Assembly: GCA_022575985.1 (NCBI GenBank)
Contig: JAKSXM010000007.1
Location: forward strand, 57,938,501 to 58,002,500
Length of the DNA: 64,000 bases
Direction: 5' to 3'
From: Anagrus nilaparvatae
Lineage: Eukaryota > Arthropoda > Insecta > Hymenoptera > Mymaridae
Part shown: piece after piece, positions 21,366 through 56,192 of the stretch
Position numbering within the stretch: position 1 is the stretch's first letter
Layout of the letters: each line of letters starts with the position of its first letter
Translations under genes and position numbers: made by a program
Notes under the pieces: generated by a model
What the model was told of the DNA's origin: nothing
Seen by the model: only the letters and a program-made list of their open reading frames with translations
Database searches by the model: none

Positions 21366-23331
21366 CTAATTCCATACTATCTCCCATCGACTTCCTTTAG
21401 AACATTTATCTTTTCCGCATAAAGTATTAAAAGTAGAATCAACTGGAAAACCAAGAATTTCTCTATCTTCTTGAATTCGAAAAGTAAACGTTGATTCTGA
21501 AGTTCCTATGAAAAACCTGTGCATTTAAAAAATGTTTTTAAGTTTTAAGCTATTTATTTAACATATACATATAATATATAGATTAATAAGTACCTTGCAT
21601 GAGAGCATATTATTTGATCAATTATTGCAATACCACCATCTTTAAATTGTTTTTTTTTTATAACTGATGGCAAATATCGTAAAACTATGTAATTTGAAAG
21701 ATGATTTTTAAGTAATGCATACTCTGTAATTTTATAAAATTTTCAATTTTAACAAATCAAACAATATTCATTCATTTAAAAAACTAATTATTGAAGAAAA
21801 TATTTTAAATGTCTACAAAAATAAATTTAAATATTAATAATATAAATATTTATACCTTTATCATCTGCATCAGATGCAACAAAAACAGTATTCAAACGTA
21901 ATTTTTTTAGATATTTTGTTATTTCTACTGCAGCATTTTCAACTGATGGTGTTGATGATGCATGTCCAGTAACAAAGTCTTGTCTCCTAAAATGTACAGC
22001 TAAATAAGGACCACCAATAGCATCTCTTTTTCTCTATTAACAAAAGTTTACATATTCAGTGATTAAGAGTAAATAAAATAGTAGTTCTTATAAAAAAAAA
22101 AAAAACAACTTTTTGCAAGGTCCAATCTGCAGGTCTTTGAACGTTATCAACTGTATTACTTGAATTCAAGTAAATTTTTCTGAAGTAATCAGCTTCTTCA
22201 TACAACTCAGAACTATAACGCATACTTCTTCTAGCTTTCCAAAATTCTACTGACCCATACTCGTTATGCAAAGGAATTTCCATATGATCAAACATAATAC
22301 TTCTAAATATAAAATTAAAAAAAATTATAAATTCTATTGTTAATTTTGAAAACTAAAAATAAATTACATATATTTTTGAGGTCTTAGATTTTGTTCCAAC
22401 CCATGTGTGGTTCCATGGAAAATAATGCAATCCAAACTATGAGCAGATATATTATTGTATCCCCAAAAATAACCAAATATTCTCTTTGATTGTGCTTCTT
22501 TATATGGAATTTGAAATTTTGAACATTTACTTATAACATTTTTATCCTTAAATTTTCCAGTCTTAAACATCTCTTCATCATTCATAAGATAAAATACTTT
22601 GTCTATAATTATTTCTTTATCTCCTTTACAGCAATCTGCAGAATTATTTGAGTAAATTATTAAAATCATATGAATCTACTAAAAGTTGACTTTAATTCAT
22701 AATATTACCTTCCATAAATTCATACATTTCTATAACATTTACATATTTCTGAAGACTTTTTAAGTCAAAAAATAAACCCCATGGTAATAACTTCTGTGAT
22801 CCAACATCACTACTTCGCCAATGATATAGATTTCCTAAAAATTACTAGTTTTAATGTATTTTAATAATCTTTATTTGAATAAGATTTTTGTAAAATAACT
22901 TGTAATGTATACCCCAAGGTGGTAAAACAATATACCAGTCGTATATTTTATCATTTTTGGCTAAATAATTAGCAAATGTTGCAACTCTGATATATACATC
23001 TCTTCTAAGATTAAATCCTTCTGGTGGATTAACATCGTATAAAATATATCTATAAGTTAAATTAAATTTTTAGAAAAGGGTAAGCAACTTTATACTTTAT
23101 ACTTTAACAACATCCTGTCATAATTTTATGCAGATTGCAGATTTTTAATGAATAAAAATTTATTAAAATAGATTATAGACCCAATTGAATATACCTTTTT
23201 TTAGAATATATGGATGATCTTTTATTTTCACATTCTTCAATTAATTCTCCATTTTTCTTAGATTCCTTACAGTATTCTTGATTCAAAGATGTATTAAGTA
23301 AGGTAAATAATAAGATTATTTTAAGTAACAT
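21366..23331 (-). CDS. POFUT2: GDP-fucose protein O-fucosyltransferase 2
   Basis: Eight exons: 23331-23195, 23049-22913, 22834-22709, 22635-22368, 22302-22110, 22033-21856, 21723-21594 and 21516-21366, giving 439 residues. Known role: an ER-lumen GT68 enzyme that transfers fucose to Ser/Thr of folded thrombospondin type-1 repeats. Visible support includes an N-terminal signal (MLLKIILLFTLLNTSLNQ), the donor-site motif YDVNPPEGFNLRRDVYIRVA, LPPWGNLYHWRS, then GGPYLAVHFRRQDF with the family's HxRRxDF residues, DGGIAIIDQIICSHA, and FFIGTSESTFTFRIQEDREI near the C terminus. An in-frame ATG lies 48 nt upstream (MFTKHGG...), but starting at MLLK gives the better signal peptide. The exon 5 donor is unusual (GTTGTT followed by a T-run). 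Part of exons 4-5 is duplicated inside a transposon at 24338-24591. Confidence 0.93.
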
Positions 23332-23410
23332 AATATTAAATTTTTCATTTGTTAGCTTGCCTCCATGTTTTGTAAACAAAAATAATTAAGAAAGCACAAA
23401 ACACGCAGAG

Positions 23411-23717
23411 TTTCTTAAATCTCATAGCATTTTTGGGGGCTACGCTTAGTTAAGGTTAGATGCAGTTAAATATATGGCGCCCCTATTTCAAATTTATAAA
23501 TCTTATTTTAAAATTTATATTAATTACATAAATAATTGGGCCGGGTAACATTTATTTTCCATTTCAAATAGCGAAATAAAACTTTTGCACATAATAATTT
23601 TAATCAGTTACTAAAATTAAGTAATCATAAATTTGAAATAGGTGCATATATTTAACAGTACCTAACCTTACCCAAGCGTAGCCCCCAAAAATGCTATAAG
23701 ATTTAAGAAACTCTGAA
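23411..23717. mobile_element. Hairpin MITE just upstream of POFUT2
   Basis: Arms at about 23411-23510 and 23625-23717 are reverse complements. Both carry AGAGTTTCTTAAATCT and TAGCATTTTTGGGGGCTACG, and a CTATTTCAAATTTAT block toward the loop. No coding sequence is present. It begins about 80 bp upstream of the POFUT2 start codon, so it may lie in or next to the promoter or 5' leader. Confidence 0.75.
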
Positions 23718-23866: not shown

Positions 23867-25138
23867 TTAACCATTAACGCCTAATCGACACATTCAAGCC
23901 ATTTGAATTTTTTTAAATGAAAAAATCGATATTTTGAGCTAAAAATGTTACCTAGTAGGTAATCGGGTTGCTCTTTTCATTTCCGAAGTCCGTTTTAACG
24001 TGCTACCCCTAGAAAATGTTATATAATCCCCTAAAAGTGGGGTAATTTTTTTATAATATTTACATGTTATTTAAATTAATATAATGGGCACAAAAAATAT
24101 TTCATGGTATTAAAAACTTAATATGGGGCTATCAGGAACATAAAAAAAACGAATTTATGCCAATTTTTTATCTTCAACCCCTTGAATGGGGTAAGGGGTG
24201 GATTTGTAGCATAAAAGAAAAAATGAATATTTTGGGTTAAAATTGTCATCCAGTAGGTATTTTGCCCTCAATTTCATTTCTGAAGTCTGTTTTTACGTAC
24301 GACCCCTAGAAAATAAGATATCACCCCCTTTCGCATCATAAAAATGTTATAAGTAAATGTTCAAAATTTCAAATTCCATATAAAGAAGCACAATCAAAGA
24401 GAATATTTGGTTATTTTTGGGGATACAATAATATATCTGCTCATAGTTTGGATTGCATTATTTTCCATGGAACCACACATGGGTTGGAACAAAATCTAAG
24501 ACCTCAAAAATATATGTAATTTATTTTTAGTTTTCAAAATTAACAATAGAATTTATAATTTTTTTTAATTTTATATTTAGAAGTATTATGTAATTATTAT
24601 GATTATGATATTATTATGAAAATAAGATATCACCCCCTTTCGCATCGAAAAAAAATAATGTAATATTTACCTTACCTTTAAGGGATGATATCTTATTTTT
24701 TAGGTGTGTCGTAGGTAAAAGCAGACTTCAGAAATGAAAATGGTGGGCAAAAATACCTACTGGATGACAATTTTAGCCCAAAATATTCATTTTTTCTTTT
24801 ATGCTACAAATCCACCCCTTACCCCATTCAAGGGGTTGAAGATAAAAAATGGGCATAAATTCGTTTTTTTTATGTTCCTGATAGCCCCATATTAAGTTTT
24901 TAATGCCATAAAAGTGCCCATTATATTAATTCAAATAACATGAAAAAATTATAAAAAAATTACCCCACTTTTAGGGGATTATATAACATTTTCTAGGGGT
25001 TGCACGTTAAAACGGACTTTGGAAATGAAAAGAGCAACCCGATTACCTACTAGGTAACATTTTTAGCTCAAAATATCGATTTTTCATTAAAAATAATTCA
25101 AATGGCTTGAATGTGTCGATTAAACGTTAATGGGTTAA
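23867..25138. mobile_element. TTAA-flanked inverted-repeat element with captured POFUT2
   Basis: Two long inverted arms (about 23867-24335 and 24675-25138) start with TTAACCATTAACG on the left and end with the complement of TTAACCCATTAACG on the right. TTAA at both edges and CCC-type ends suggest the piggyBac superfamily, but no transposase is present, so it is non-autonomous. Shared internal blocks include CCTAGTAGGTAATCGGGTTG and CCCCTTGAATGGGGTAAGG. The loop contains 24338-24591, a 254-bp copy of POFUT2, bracketed by a 29-bp direct repeat of element sequence at 24309-24337 and 24618-24646. Family assignment is inference; the arms and the capture are read directly. Confidence 0.85.
24338..24591 (+). 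pseudogene. POFUT2 gene fragment (exon 4, intron 4, exon 5 start)
   Basis: This segment is the reverse complement of 22292-22545: the 3' part of POFUT2 exon 4, all of intron 4 with its donor and acceptor, and the first bases of exon 5. Both copies are 254 bp, and I saw no difference on direct reading, including an 8-base homopolymer in the intron. Because the intron is present, the copy was made from DNA and not from mRNA. It cannot encode an enzyme on its own. A low-complexity linker (24592-24617) separates it from the right-hand direct repeat. Confidence 0.93.
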
Positions 25139-27539: not shown

Positions 27540-28360
27540 GTGGTGGACAGAGCGCCCTGCTCTACCGATAAAGTTAACATTAACCAGTCAAAGTTAACTT
27601 TAGCGAAGCGTTTTCGTTAAAGTCCACGAAGACGATTCAAATGAATAAAAATACAACATTAACGGGTGTGCATACGATAAAGTTAACTTTAACCAATCCT
27701 TATCAGTTAAAGTCCATGAAAGCGGTTTCGCATACTAAAAAAAATTTGTATAGTAATATTCTATACGACTCTCGCTATAAGGCACCCCAAGGGATTAGGT
27801 TATGCTACTCTTTTAAAAATGCATTTCTTGGGACTAGTAACCAATCCTAGTTATAACACACCCCAAGGGTTAGGTTAGGCTATTTTTTTTTAAAGGCATT
27901 ATCACGCAGTAAGGCATTCCCTATAATTAGGGCAAGGTGTGCTTAAGAATCCATGCGCAAGTTTGTAAGCAATACTGTGACAATGCCTTTTAAAAAAAAT
28001 AGCCTAAGCTAACCCTTGGGGTGCCTTATAACTAGGATTGGTTACTAGTCCTAAGAAATGCATTTTTAAAAGAGTAGCCTAACCGTAGAGATATTTCACA
28101 ATGTCTCTATGAGGCTAACCTAAGCCCTGAGAGTACCTTATAGCGAGAGTCGTATATAATATATAATACAAACTCGAACTCTTATATGAAACCGCTTTCA
28201 TGGACTTAAAACTGTTAGTTAAAACTAACAAGGATTTGTTAAAGTTAACTTTAACTGACATAAACCCGTTAAAGGTATATTTTTATTCATTTTAATCGAC
28301 TTCGTGGTTTCGCTAAAGTTAACTTTAACTGGTTAATGTTAACTTTATCAGGAGAGCGGA
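27540..28360. mobile_element. 0.8-kb foldback element
   Basis: Left and right halves are imperfect reverse complements meeting at about 27930. Outer arms carry repeated AAAGTTAACTTTAAC-type palindromes next to CGTTAAAGTCCACGAAG. Inner arms carry GACTCTCGCTATAAGG, ACCCCAAGGGTTAGG and AAAAATGCATTTCTTGGGAC. The right arm holds an extra segment (about 28084-28112) that is itself a small hairpin. No coding capacity is seen. The outer palindromes could be transposase-binding subrepeats. Confidence 0.85.
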
Positions 28361-35000: not shown

Positions 35001-38000
35001 AAAATTATAAAAAATTATTGGCCTACATATTTCTCGGTATTCATGTAAAATAATCAATTTAAACAACATTATCTCATTGTAAATAAAACATTTTTTTTTT
35101 TTTTTAATTTTCTTAGAATTTTTATGAAAGAATATTTTTTAATTCAAAATATTATTTTAATACCATGATCAAAAATTATCTTTATTAATAAAAAAAATTC
35201 ATTCATTAAGGAGTAGTCTATATAGATAAAATTTTATTTTAATTTAAATTATGAAAAAATTTAGAGCCAAAAAGCAAAGATTTTAGTTGGATTTTTTATG
35301 TGCTTGAAAAAATTATATGCAAACTAAATTTTACTCATGATTTTATTGTAAATTGCAAAATCAATAAGTATTTGCTTTTAAAATTTTAAGGCTCTCAAGG
35401 TTACCATGAATAGATCATCCAAGAATTTTATAAACTGTTGGATTTATGGGCATTGAAATACTAGATGTAACTTTTCTAATGGGTCTCGTAAATTTAATGT
35501 AAAGCGTTTGCACCAGGAGAATTTTGTCTTGCTATATTTAATATCTTTCCGAATGTAAAAATTTTTTTAAAATTATGCATAAAAATTGATCTTCATATAT
35601 AACGATAAAAAACTAAAGTTCAATTTGATAACCAACTCTTTGCATACAATCAAAGCCAGTCCAAATTTTTGGAATAATAAAAGCCTGTAGCACCTTTTCT
35701 CTTTTTTGAAATTCGTATTTTAAAACAGAACGATATTTCTTACTGAATAAATTTCGAACTACATCTACTTTACATTACACCAAAAAATTTTCTAAAAAGA
35801 GCGAAAAAATGTATTCAGAAAAAATTCGTTAAGAAAAAAAAAACGCAGATTTTAGTTTACCATTATTGGCGTGAAATTTGAGGGATTCTTTATTTTTCTA
35901 GCCGGGTTTGTAGCATACTACTGATTTTTGAAATGGATTATAAACATTTTATAGATTTTTGATATTTTAATCAAAATCATACAGTTTAAGAAAATTTCAG
36001 AAAAGTAGCAAGATTTCACAAAAACAAAATTATTCGCAATCATCTATAAAAAATTTAAACTACTTGTTCGAAAATTATGAAATCACCCGATTTTTTATGA
36101 AAGAACTGCATTTTCTGCCAAAGCAGCATATATTTAAGATGTAATATTTTTCTCATACTTCTTAAAAAAAAAATTTTTAAACAATTTTAAAATGAATAAT
36201 ATTTATTTAAAAAAACCTTGTCGATAGATTCAGACAACTTCGTAGACAGTTTGTATTGGTTCCTGTTAATTTAATTTTTTCTAAGAACTTATGTTATTTG
36301 AATTAATTCTATAATAATTTAAATATTTGCTCTTAATATATATTTTTTTCTTAACTTAAATAATTTTTTATTTTCATCAAAAATTAAATTAAAAATATTA
36401 TTTAATTAAATTAAATTTAATTAAATAAATTAACAAGGCTAAAATATAAAATTTGTATTTTAAGATTGCAAAATAGCGAATTTAAAAAAATTCTTTATGC
36501 AAGCTGAATCTGTAATATGATTGTGTAGAATCTATGGAGAAATCGCTCTTGAAAGTTAACAGTTAACAGGATGGGCAACCGAACAGAGATAAAACTAGTG
36601 CATTCACCGACTCATTGACGCTTTTTAGCAAATGGATAAAGAATCGAACACTGTGAAGAAAATAAAAATTTTATTCTGACAAGACCTTAAGGTTCAATCG
36701 ATTTTGTTGATATGAAAATATGTTGTTGCTCTCAAAAAAGGGTCACATATTTTTTTTATAGGCGAAAAACCACTTTTAAGAGTGAAATAGCCCTTAAAAA
36801 TTAAGGATGAAATTCATATTATTTCATTATTTAACATAAAAGGGTCGTTAAAAAAAAAACGTAACGCTGATAAGATGGGTGAGTATTAAAGAAAAGTACT
36901 ATTTACTTAAAATGAGGTGTGTGGGTATTTAACAGAAAGCTTTAGGTACGTAACGGGTAACTCCATGGATAAATAGCACAAAATGATATCCGAGGTCTCA
37001 AAAATACGAAATTTGTTTTTTTTTCAATAAAACAACTTAAAAATAGATGATTCCCCAATTTTGAAGGTTTTCTATAAATTTTGAAGGGTGCTATGCTGAT
37101 TTAAAGTTTTTTGATCAAATTTCTCTCCTCAGCCACCATTTTTGTAAGTCCCGTAAAAAAGCTCTAAATAACGTTAAAAAAAGAAAAAAAGTAGGCTTTC
37201 GATGTAAAATTTGATGAAATATTCAAATTTTCAGTCAGATTTTTCCTACTCTATGTCAATTTGCAGGAAAATTCAAATTTGTGTTAAACTTTAAGTGAAA
37301 ATAACTCAAAAGTTTCCCTCTAAAAAAAAATTTTTTTTGTCTCAAAATTTTCCAAAATTGCATATATTTTACTGAAAAAAATTTCCCGAGAGTAATTTTT
37401 GTTTTAAGCGAGTAATACCGATTTTCGTTTTTTTCAATTTTGACTTGTTATTTATTTTGCTGATTTCCCGCGCTAAGTCACGTGACCAAATGAAAATCTG
37501 ACCAAAAATTTGAATTCAGCGGGAAATTTTACAAAGGTATAGTAATTTTTGTATCCTTTGAATGATACATCTCAATTTGACAATTTAATTAAAATGGCTT
37601 ATTAAAATATAGAAAAAATGAAAATTTATAAAATGGGATTTTATTGATTTTTGGGTAAAAAGTAAAAATAACTCAAAAGTTTCCCGCTAAAAAAAAAAAT
37701 TTTTTGTCTTAAAATTTTCCAAAATTGCATATATTTTACTGAAAAAAATTTCTCGAGAATAATTTTTGTTTTAAGCGAGTAATACCGATTTTAGTTTTTT
37801 TCAATTTTGACTTGTTATTATTATTATTATTATTCAGTTTATTTGTCGTAACAAAATTAGTACACTCTTTTACAATCATAAATAAGTTAATACAATGTAG
37901 AAAAAATAATGAAAGTTTATAAAGTCTATACAATTGATATAAATGATAAAATATTGAAAATATTAAAATATATTAAAATTATTAAAATATTAAAGTCAAC

Positions 38001-41000
38001 AACAATCTGTCAGTAGTAAATAATTAAAATTAAAATAGATAGATATATTATATATATAACAATTGCTATAACGTCAATAGAATTATAAGTAAATAACAAG
38101 TCAAAAAAGAAAATTAAAGTTATATTAGTAGTCAACAATATAAAGTTAATATATATGTCATTTATTTATTATCCAAGCTAAATAAATAAGATTTTATACT
38201 TTTCTTGAATAGATTGAATGAGGGGAGATCACGTATGCACGGTGGAATTTTGTTCCAAAATTTGGCATACTTTACTTGAAATGATTGCACACCCCAATTA
38301 TTTGTAACAGGAGGTATTTCCAGATCTTTACGAGGTCCCCGAGTTGGTCTGTCTCTTATGTATGGCTTGAATAGTGGTAATAGAAACGGGGGTTGTTTCA
38401 TACGTATTATTTTATACATAGTCAAAGATGCAAAGTAGTCCATTCGTGTAGTTATTTGCATCCAGTTAAGTTACTTGTTAACTTGTTACTTATTTTGCTG
38501 ATTTCCCGCGCTAAGTCACGTGACCAAATGAAAATCTGACCAAAAATTTGAATTCTGCGGTAAATTTTACAAGGGTATAGTAATTTTGGTATCCTTTGAA
38601 TGATACATCTTAATTTGATAATTTAATGAAAATAGATTATTAAAATATAGAAAAAATGAAAATTTATAAAATGGGAGTTTCTTGATTTTTTTACATTTTT
38701 AGCTTAAAAATCATGTAAAATCTAAAAATAAAAATACTTCTTTTGGAAAAACAAAAGTTATGTCTATTATTATTTAAAATCAAGTTTTTTTTAAGTTTAG
38801 ATTTTATTTTCTATAACAATGTTTATAAATAGTTAGAAATGTACCCAAAAATCAATAAAATCCCATTTTATAAATTTTCATTTTTTCTATATTTTAATAA
38901 GCCATTTTAATTAAATTGTCAAATTGAGATGTATCATTCAAAGGATACAAAAATTACTATACCTTTGTAAAATTTCCCGCTGAATTCAAATTTTTGGTCA
39001 GATTTTCATTTGGTCACGTGACTTAGCGCGGGAAATCAGCAAAATAAATAACAAGTCAAAATTGAAAAAAACGAAAATCGGTATTACTCGCTTAAAACAA
39101 AAATTACTCTCGGGAAATTTTTTTCAGTAAAATATATGCAATTTTGGAAAATTTTGAGACAAAAAAAATTTTTTTTAGAGGGAAACTTTTGAGTTATTTT
39201 CACTTAAAGTTTAACACAAATTTGAATTTTCCTGCAAATTGACATAGAGTAGGAAAAATCTGACTGAAAATTTGAATATTTCATCAAATTTTACATCGAA
39301 AACCTACTTTTTTTCATTTTTTAACGTTATTTAGAGCTTTTTTACGGGACTTTCAAAAATGGTGGCTGAGGAGAGAAATTTGACCAAAAAACTTTAAATC
39401 AGCATAGCACCCTTCACAATTTATAGAAAACCTTCAAATTCAGGGAATCATCTATTTTTAAGTTGTTTTATCAAAAAAAAACCAAATTTCGTATTTTTGA
39501 GACCTCGCATATCATTTTGTGCTATTTATTCAATGAATTACCCTATACTATTAGCGTTTTTTTATCTTGTCATACTTGTTCTAAAACAATAAAATGAATT
39601 CTTACCAGTAATAATTCGGCCAATCAGCAATAACGTCACGGAATAACTTCTTGCAATTAAAAACCATCCAAAAGCACAAACAATACCAGCTAAATACAAT
39701 GCAAAACGTCTACCGTAACCCATAGTACTAAGACTTATAAGACAACCAAATGGTACGGATATTGTAAAAATTGATGCTATAAATAAAAATTATAAAACTT
39801 AATTATATATTTATATTAATTTGAAAGAAAATTTAAAACAAAAATTTACCAAACCATGTTGATTGTGTTGGTGTTAAGGTAACTTCATCTGATGTTGTTT
39901 CATTTAATAATAATGGTATTGCAACACCTGAATAACCTATACTCATTCCTGGACCAACTAAAGCTGTTACTGTTAATAAACAGTAAAGGATCTGAAATTA
40001 AAATATAAGTTGAAAAAGAAAAATATTTTTTTTATTGGTATTAATTTTTGTACTGATTTTTTAATCAATTATTTACATTTGATATAGATTAAAAATGAAT
40101 TTGGGAAAATTTTATATTTATTTATTTTTACAAGTTTGTTTATTTTAATAAATTTATTTACTTTTCGATTGATAGATATCAAAATGTTATATCTCTATAT
40201 CACGTAGGTTTTATTTCATCGAAAATAAAAAAATAAAAAATGACTAACCGAATTTCTAGAAACAAATCTTCACAAAGTTTTTTAGCTTTCAACTCTTAAG
40301 CTATACATTGAAAAAAAAAACGTTGCCAAATTATTGACACTACGGCTCCTTAAATAATTAGAAAATATTCGTAATCATCTATTTTACACAATAAAGTATA
40401 ATATGGCAGAAGAAAAACTATAAATGATTTTTTCCTTGATATAAATGTCATTTTAAATTCATTTGTAAGTTCAGATAAAAAAAAAACGCTGCCAAGTAAT
40501 TGTACTATGGTTCCTCATTAACAATAAGAAAATATTATTAATGGTCTTTATTTTACCTAGTAAAAACGATAATTCTAGATATTAGTACTTTCATAGAAAA
40601 AAATTAAGTATTACGTTCAAAAAGAAAAAATCGTCACGTCTTTTAAAAAATTATCGAAAAATTAGGTAACAGATTCGAGATATCGAGTAAAAACCATATT
40701 TTCAGATATAAGTACTTTCATAGAATTAAATGAGGTATTTCATAAAAAAAAAAAAAAAAAAAATTTTACAGTATTTTTTATTTATTTTTTTTTAAATTTA
40801 GTAAAAAAAATTTTGAAAATTTTAAGAATCAGATTATTTTACCAAAAAAATAAATTTATACCAAAAAATTATTATAAACGAGGTTCCTAAAACTAGTATC
40901 TTCCATAGAAATAAATTAGGTAATACTTAGATTCTTTGATAAAAAAATTTTTGAAAAAAAAATTACGTTTCAATTTTTCAGTTCAATTAAACATGCACAC

Positions 41001-55122: not shown

Positions 55123-56192
55123 AGTTGACAGTGTCTATTTACACTTACCGTTTCAACACGGTTGTTCCATTCTTCAGATAAAATTCACGGTTTTTCATCT
55201 TTTCCGTATGTAACCGTACAAAATTACCGTATATATAACCGTATGACTCGCAGGTTTAATTATATATCTACCGTAAAAAACCGCGTGAAAAAAATTCAAA
55301 TACTTCAACCGTGTATAACCGTGTCATTATAAATAAATAAAAAAGAATGCCGTGTCCAACCGTATGAAAAATTTATATAAAGAATCAACCGTGTTTAACC
55401 GTGTCAATATAATAAGGAAAAGCTCAGCCGTGTGTAACCGTATAAAAAATGAATTTATAACTACTGCCGTGTTTAACCGTATAAATATTAACAAAAAAGA
55501 AGTAAACCGTAAGTAGCCGTATAACAATTAATTTGAAGCATCAACCGTGTTTAACCGTGTCTTTATAAGCATATATTTTAAAGAATCCACCGTGTTTAAC
55601 CGTTTTAATACAATAAATAACAGCTCAACCGTTTATGACTTTATGAAAAATGAATTTATAGCTTCTGCCGTTTTTAACCGTACGTACTCTATATATTAGC
55701 TCACTCACGGGGCCTTCGGCCCCCTTTCGTAAAAATAAATTTTAACTAAATTAAATTATTGACAGAAATATTGAATGACAGCTCATAAGGGGGCCGAAGG
55801 CCCCGTGCGCCAATATTATGTACTTTTAATAATTCTTTTTTTTTAACGGCCGTATTTATACATTAAATTTTTATACGGTTACACACAGCAAGCATTTTTC
55901 ATACGGTTGTTCACGGTTGATCGATTGTATGCTTATAAATCCACGGTTAAAAACGGTTGATCCTTGAAATTCATTTTTCATACACTTACACACGGCTGAG
56001 CTCATTTTATTATATTGACACGGCTAAAAACGGCGGAAACTGTAAAACAAATTTTTATACGGCTAGACACGGCAGAAGTTTGGCTTATTTGTAAGTCACA
56101 CGGATATACACGGAAAAGATGAAAACCAGTGGATTTTATCTGAGAAACGAAATGCCGTGTGGAAACGGTAAGTGTAAATAGACACCGTCCAG
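55123..56192. mobile_element. Foldback element with CCGTGT dyad array
   Basis: Terminal inverted repeats (GTGTCTATTTACACTTACCG on the left and its complement on the right) enclose two opposed arrays. The left half holds about 14 copies of a dyad close to CCGTGTTTAACCGTGT, spaced about 36-47 bp apart from 55146 to 55685. The right half holds about nine copies in the opposite orientation (ACGGTTAAAAACGG type, 55848-56170). A perfect GC-rich inverted repeat, CACGGGGCCTTCGGCCCCC, flanks the centre at 55706 and 55789. No protein gene is present. The minus-strand open frame with repeated RLNTA is a translation of the array. Confidence 0.85.

Follow-up and report, generated by a model that had tools for sequence, protein, structure and literature searches.

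Structure of the element upstream of POFUT2

The window, a stretch of 64,000 nucleotides from the genome of Anagrus nilaparvatae (Hymenoptera, Mymaridae), lies within a 74.1-Mb contig of the host assembly, which comprises 488.7 Mb in 393 contigs. The assembly gave 147 matches to PF02949, the odorant-receptor family specific to insects, for which none of 14 control genomes gave a match, in keeping with an insect host. It contains the host gene POFUT2 on the minus strand and, upstream of it, a palindromic element whose loop holds a copy of a POFUT2 segment. The features of the locus are as follows:

22292–22545, minus strand: donor segment in POFUT2, comprising a portion of exon 4, the whole of intron 4, and 11 nt at the start of exon 5
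23867–25138, no strand: entire element including both TTAA target copies, 1,272 bp (element proper, 23871–25134)
23871–24327, plus strand: left arm of the palindrome, which starts CCATTAACG and is 92.7% alike to the right arm
24309–24337, plus strand: first copy of the 29-nt palindrome-tip element sequence, running on from the left arm; present once in aligned siblings
24338–24591, plus strand: POFUT2 copy, 254 nt, 254/254 identity, with the POFUT2 sense on the plus strand (exon 4 part, 24338–24515; intron 4, 24516–24580; exon 5 part, 24581–24591)
24592–24617, plus strand: AT-rich filler, 26 nt, which differs from the continuation of the donor
24618–24646, plus strand: second copy of the 29-nt element sequence, 29/29 identical to 24309–24337
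24647–24681, plus strand: rest of the original loop, which in siblings is aligned straight after GCATC
24682–25134, minus strand: right arm of the palindrome, which finishes CGTTAATGGG; limits based on the arm alignment

The first-pass annotation had described a TTAA-flanked inverted-repeat element, in agreement with the TTAA tetranucleotides at 23867–23870 and 25135–25138 and with the similarity of the arms (92.7% over 466 alignment columns). The aligned arms are separated by 354 nt (24328–24681), and the element as one DNA strand is predicted to fold into a single long hairpin. The left arm contains a 77% direct repeat, formed by 23914–24032 and 24212–24329. A search with the left arm (471 bases) gave no match in phage records, and one exact 24-nt arm pattern gave none in viral contigs.

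The window is rich in palindromic elements. A large nested palindrome at 36955–39543 has 703-bp arms that are 97.6% alike, with 38478–39059 inside it, and the stretches 27559–28357 and 55389–56113 are self-complementary at 70% and 64%, respectively. A second small inverted-repeat element (23406–23715; 71-bp arms, 92% complementary) is located 75 bp upstream of the POFUT2 start codon (23331).

Donor gene and captured piece

Judged by sequence similarity, the host gene is POFUT2, as the first-pass annotation had named it. Its first six exons, joined by eye, gave the solved POFUT2 chain 4ap5 as the best match (E = 6.1e-71) and also matched the Pfam family O-FucT (E = 4.9e-29). The exons, with limits taken from splice sites read by eye, occupy 23331–23195, 23049–22913, 22834–22709, and 22635–22368 of the minus strand, and the next exon starts at 22302. 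Intron 4 (22367–22303) is 65 nt long and is unchanged in the copy.

The piece at 24338–24591 had been called identical to the gene by eye, and alignment to the reverse complement of 22292–22545 showed that 254 of 254 bases are equal. The copy is inverted relative to its donor, and the gap between them is 1,792 nt, in line with the earlier figure of 1.8 kb. The piece was also said to span exon 4, intron 4, and exon 5, of which intron 4 is present in full but the exons are not: exon 4 (268 nt) contributes its 3' 178 nt, and exon 5 contributes its first 11 nt. The retained intron rules out a retrocopy and upholds the proposal that the piece was copied from DNA. A whole-genome search with the captured piece, which skips very common words, found it in two places, the POFUT2 gene and the focal element. 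Since the search returned the gene and the element alone, the captured piece is no chance match. In the simplest view, the capture in the neighborhood of POFUT2 is a putative silent repair scar.

Duplication, filler, and junctions at the palindrome tip

The captured piece and the 26-nt filler are bracketed by two identical 29-nt copies of element sequence (24309–24337 and 24618–24646). The duplication and the filler are additions to the previous description, which had noted the POFUT2 copy. The 29-nt stretch is single in aligned siblings, where it is placed at the palindrome tip. Omitting 24338–24646 from the focal element results in a 963-bp empty form, with the insertion point at 0.489 of the element length. 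The fold predicted for the empty form has a small hairpin, TTTCG-CAT-CGAAA, near the palindrome apex, and the insertion point is 1 nt beyond the 3-nt tip of this hairpin. The chance of a single insertion hitting the 45-nt loop of the 963-bp element is 0.047 on its own.

The left junction has no microhomology, and the join of the filler to the element contains at most one ambiguous base. The filler together with two bases had no other match in the window at up to three mismatches. Copying of the filler from the end of the insert is unsupported, because the longest word common to them is 7 nt, a length attained by 84% of 5,000 shuffles. A short 17-nt tandem, identified by TRF, extends across the insert end and the filler. 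The combination of the 29-nt duplication, filler, and copied DNA is what a break-repair scar would look like. The A run at 24647–24655, after the second 29-nt copy, has eight A residues, compared to six in all 16 aligned siblings, and the difference is perhaps a repair error beside the junction.

Sibling elements and the empty form

A search of the genome for the element, in which 40 of 1,784 candidates were scored and copy numbers are lower bounds, gave at least 155 matches; among the matches listed, the focal one alone covers the whole query. The 20 regions that were fetched contained 16 near-full-length copies of 931–974 bp and four half copies (L033, L048, L049, and L050), which were left out of the dating. 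In all, 17 loci lacked an 880-column match, and several of these were one and the same place. The captured piece is present in none of the 16 near-full-length siblings. In 13 of them, the alignment to the 963-bp empty form spans the whole of that form, and in the other three nearly all of it; TTAA is found at both aligned ends in 13 of the 16. The siblings, which are without the insert and contain a single 29-nt stretch, thus correspond to the empty form predicted by the scar.

A 26-nt loop motif was found 57 times, including two occurrences in the focal element. From the 55 non-focal matches, 52 were kept, and three were filtered out owing to identical context or less than 600 nt of downstream sequence. 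None of these 52 loop copies contains the captured piece; GCATC is followed directly by the usual loop sequence or by one closely resembling it. The first-pass annotation had considered that the POFUT2-like block might be an old shared part of the transposon family, which is ruled out by its absence from all 16 siblings and all 52 other loop copies.

Some of the copies have features of their own. L031 and L032, both among the 16 siblings, have the same flanking bases and may be one duplicated locus, and the pairs L065/L078 and L070/L071, among the 52 loop copies, share left flanks and appear to be duplicated loci. These three pairs may reflect either segmental duplication or haplotypes left uncollapsed in the assembly. 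In L064, the right arm is interrupted by a nested insertion of about 255 bp, and the two edges of this insertion overlap by 5 nt ending in TTAA. L005, L008, L013, L014, L019, and others are half palindromes or have internal deletions; they end shortly after the loop and continue into differing sequences.

Relative age of the capture

Compared to the 16 siblings, which are part of a larger family, the focal element shows 24 private substitutions over 959 nt, and its nearest sibling differs from it by 5.69%. The captured piece has no changes in 254 nt relative to the POFUT2 gene (Fisher p = 0.0047 against 24/959), and its divergence has an upper 95% bound of 1.17%. If the insert were equal in age to the element, the probability of zero changes would be 0.0017. 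Comparison of the insert to the arms, which have 22 mismatches in 458 positions, gave p = 6e-5, but much of the arm divergence may predate the insertion, as 14 arm mismatches are already present in the majority sequence of the siblings. Because the element has accumulated private substitutions (24/959) and the piece has none (0/254), the capture probably occurred later than the insertion of the element. The dating is suggestive rather than a proof, because the identity of the two 254-bp copies could also result from gene conversion that erased their differences.

Breaks at the tip in the element family

Breaks were counted in the right half of the 52 loop copies, and the motif by which the copies were found sits in the left half. 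Twenty-six copies reach the right end without a break; in 25, the position of a break in the right half could be measured, and L090, which has no measurable break position, is outside the 25. Thirteen of the 25 breaks fall within the first 75 nt of this 490-nt half (p = 2.1e-5), a cut-off that was picked after the positions had been seen. L070 and L071 share both flanks and represent one locus, and the recount with this pair merged gave 12 of 24 (p = 7.3e-5). The sequences past the tip breaks do not match each other, except for the L070/L071 pair and element sequence. Because they mostly differ, the sequences past the breaks speak for separate events. The counts, with the cut-off chosen afterwards, are a sign that palindrome tips break often in this element family.

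The siblings broken near the same tip provide a way to study the breakage and healing of long palindromes in the animal germline. We speculate, with considerable doubt, that palindromic TTAA elements are recurrent break sites, whose hairpin tips open with ends staggered by a few tens of bases, and that each copy traps nearby DNA. If this were true, the numerous copies of the insect family and their often rearranged tips would preserve a natural record of how hairpin tips break and what their repair produces.

Proposed mechanism of the capture

Based on the structure of the focal element and its comparison to the siblings, a mechanism of the capture can be proposed. We estimate a probability of approximately 0.85 that the element is a single-copy Pack-TIR formed by transposition-independent gap filling, in which a break of the tip after landing was repaired from POFUT2. 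A non-autonomous long-palindrome TTAA element would have inserted upstream of POFUT2, and a double-strand break would have occurred later at the tip of the hairpin. Repair synthesis may then have copied 254 nt of POFUT2, located 1.8 kb away in the opposite orientation, followed by the addition of the 26-nt AT-rich filler. The joining to the element would have duplicated 29 nt at the break. The 29-nt repeat may have originated either from a staggered break with 29-nt ends, both of which were filled in, or from a backward template switch of 29 nt. The donor, the junctions, the duplication, the absence from the siblings examined, the smaller number of changes in the piece than in the element, and the frequent right-side tip breaks of the family are observed, and the break itself, the order of template switching, and the enzymes are inferred. 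The junctions, without microhomology on the left and with at most one ambiguous base at the join of the filler to the element, count against gap filling, since microhomology at one or both ends was reported for 67.6% of the published cases (PMC8277862).

The first-pass annotation had attributed the locus to a transposon that captured a piece of a host gene. The DNA-level copy of the neighboring gene is borne out. Break repair after landing explains the capture better than transposition does, and no second captured copy was found. It is improbable that POFUT2 DNA was taken up while the element was mobile, during transposition or by replication fork switching (FoSTeST-like), and that the element then landed beside its donor. 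The family is dispersed in many copies and the ends of the focal element are intact with TTAA, as such uptake would allow, but the insert has fewer changes than the element, the genome search gave a single captured copy, and the published multicopy cases are far from their donors (PMC8277862), not within 1.8 kb. Still less probable is a chimeric join made during assembly or library preparation. Long palindromes are difficult to assemble; however, the site is inside a 74.1-Mb contig, the copy has the opposite orientation to the donor, its borders are marked by the filler and a 29-nt duplication that is exact, and an assembly error would not be expected exactly at the tip. The perfect direct repeat on both sides of the POFUT2-like block would fit a mobile element in the loop with a 29-nt target-site duplication, an explanation that we dismiss as almost certainly wrong, since the block starts and stops within exons, the genome search found it in the gene and the element only, and, to our knowledge, 29 nt fits no known target duplication.

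Comparison to known systems

According to its ends, the element family is probably piggyBac-like. The ends of piggyBac-like elements have the form CCC/CCY...GGG. The ends given for the family are CCCATTAACG; the left end is TTAACCCATTAACG in 10 of the 16 siblings and the right end is CGTTAATGGGTTAA in 12 of the 16, and most of the others deviate by a single base or are truncated. In the focal copy, the left end has CC, one C fewer. The TTAA target duplication characteristic of piggyBac is present at both ends of the focal copy and of 13 of the 16 siblings. Pack-MULEs of plants have Mutator-type target duplications of 8–11 bp and are more often multicopy. The focal element resembles them in being a non-autonomous inverted-repeat element with a gene fragment, but it belongs to another superfamily and is not a Pack-MULE, as its target duplication is the 4-bp TTAA.

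Pack-MULEs are also mentioned in the survey of Tan et al. 2021 (PMC8277862). The survey reported 370 Pack-TIRs from 100 animal genomes, mostly single-copy, and ascribed most of the single-copy ones to transposition-independent gap filling. The donor was within 15 kb in 160 of 281 cases, in the majority of those within 5 kb, and 323 of the 370 were in hAT and Tc/mariner elements. The statement of the first-pass annotation that capture is much less often described in animals than in plants is thus tempered by these 370 cases, yet the survey lists none for its reference genomes of insects; from fly populations it describes one multicopy family, Ssk-FB4. The literature searched contained no other paper using the term Pack-TIR. 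Insect gene capture by Helitrons has been published (PMC6544945), and no insect capture by a TTAA element was recognized among the matches listed from the insect, piggyBac, MITE, and foldback literature, a negative result of little weight. Published work also treats long inverted repeats as a source of breaks and rearrangements.

A Pack-TIR has an internal sequence of 100–5,000 bp flanked by the ends of one TIR element, which is 354 nt here, and a unique parent with at least 90% identity and a length ratio of 80–120%, here 100% over 254/254. The intron is kept, so that the copy is no retrocopy. The definition also includes that no transposon is located within 100 bp of the parental copy (PMC8277862), and the window self-matches listed contained no repeat match within 100 bp of the POFUT2 donor copy. 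Multicopy Pack-TIRs have spread by transposition; the focal capture has not, with one element copy in the genome search and none in the 52 loop copies.

At this locus, a DNA transposon of an insect has captured a gene fragment in a recent and readable event; the survey reports no such case from its insect reference genomes (PMC8277862). The route can be inferred rather than guessed, because the donor, the scar, and the empty form are all available, together with an estimate of the relative date. In yeast, templated insertions at double-strand breaks include very short inverted duplications, most of about 5–34 bp (PMC11724301); repair likewise copies DNA into the break, but the yeast insertions have no tie to a transposon. 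Ssk-FB4 of Drosophila melanogaster is also a long inverted-repeat element with a host gene in an insect and has de novo bases at one junction, but it is multicopy, polymorphic, and distant from its donor, has target duplications of 9–10 bp, and contains almost the whole gene (PMC8277862). The gap-filling single-copy Pack-TIRs share with the focal element the TIR ends, host fragment, retained intron, single copy, donor within 5 kb on the same chromosome and, probably, the interior break and an element older than the capture (PMC8277862). What sets the focal element apart from the published Pack-TIRs is its insect host, its palindromic TTAA structure, and the filler and 29-nt duplication at the tip of its hairpin. 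It is best read as a further example of a published, rarely documented kind of gene-piece shuffling in animal genomes.
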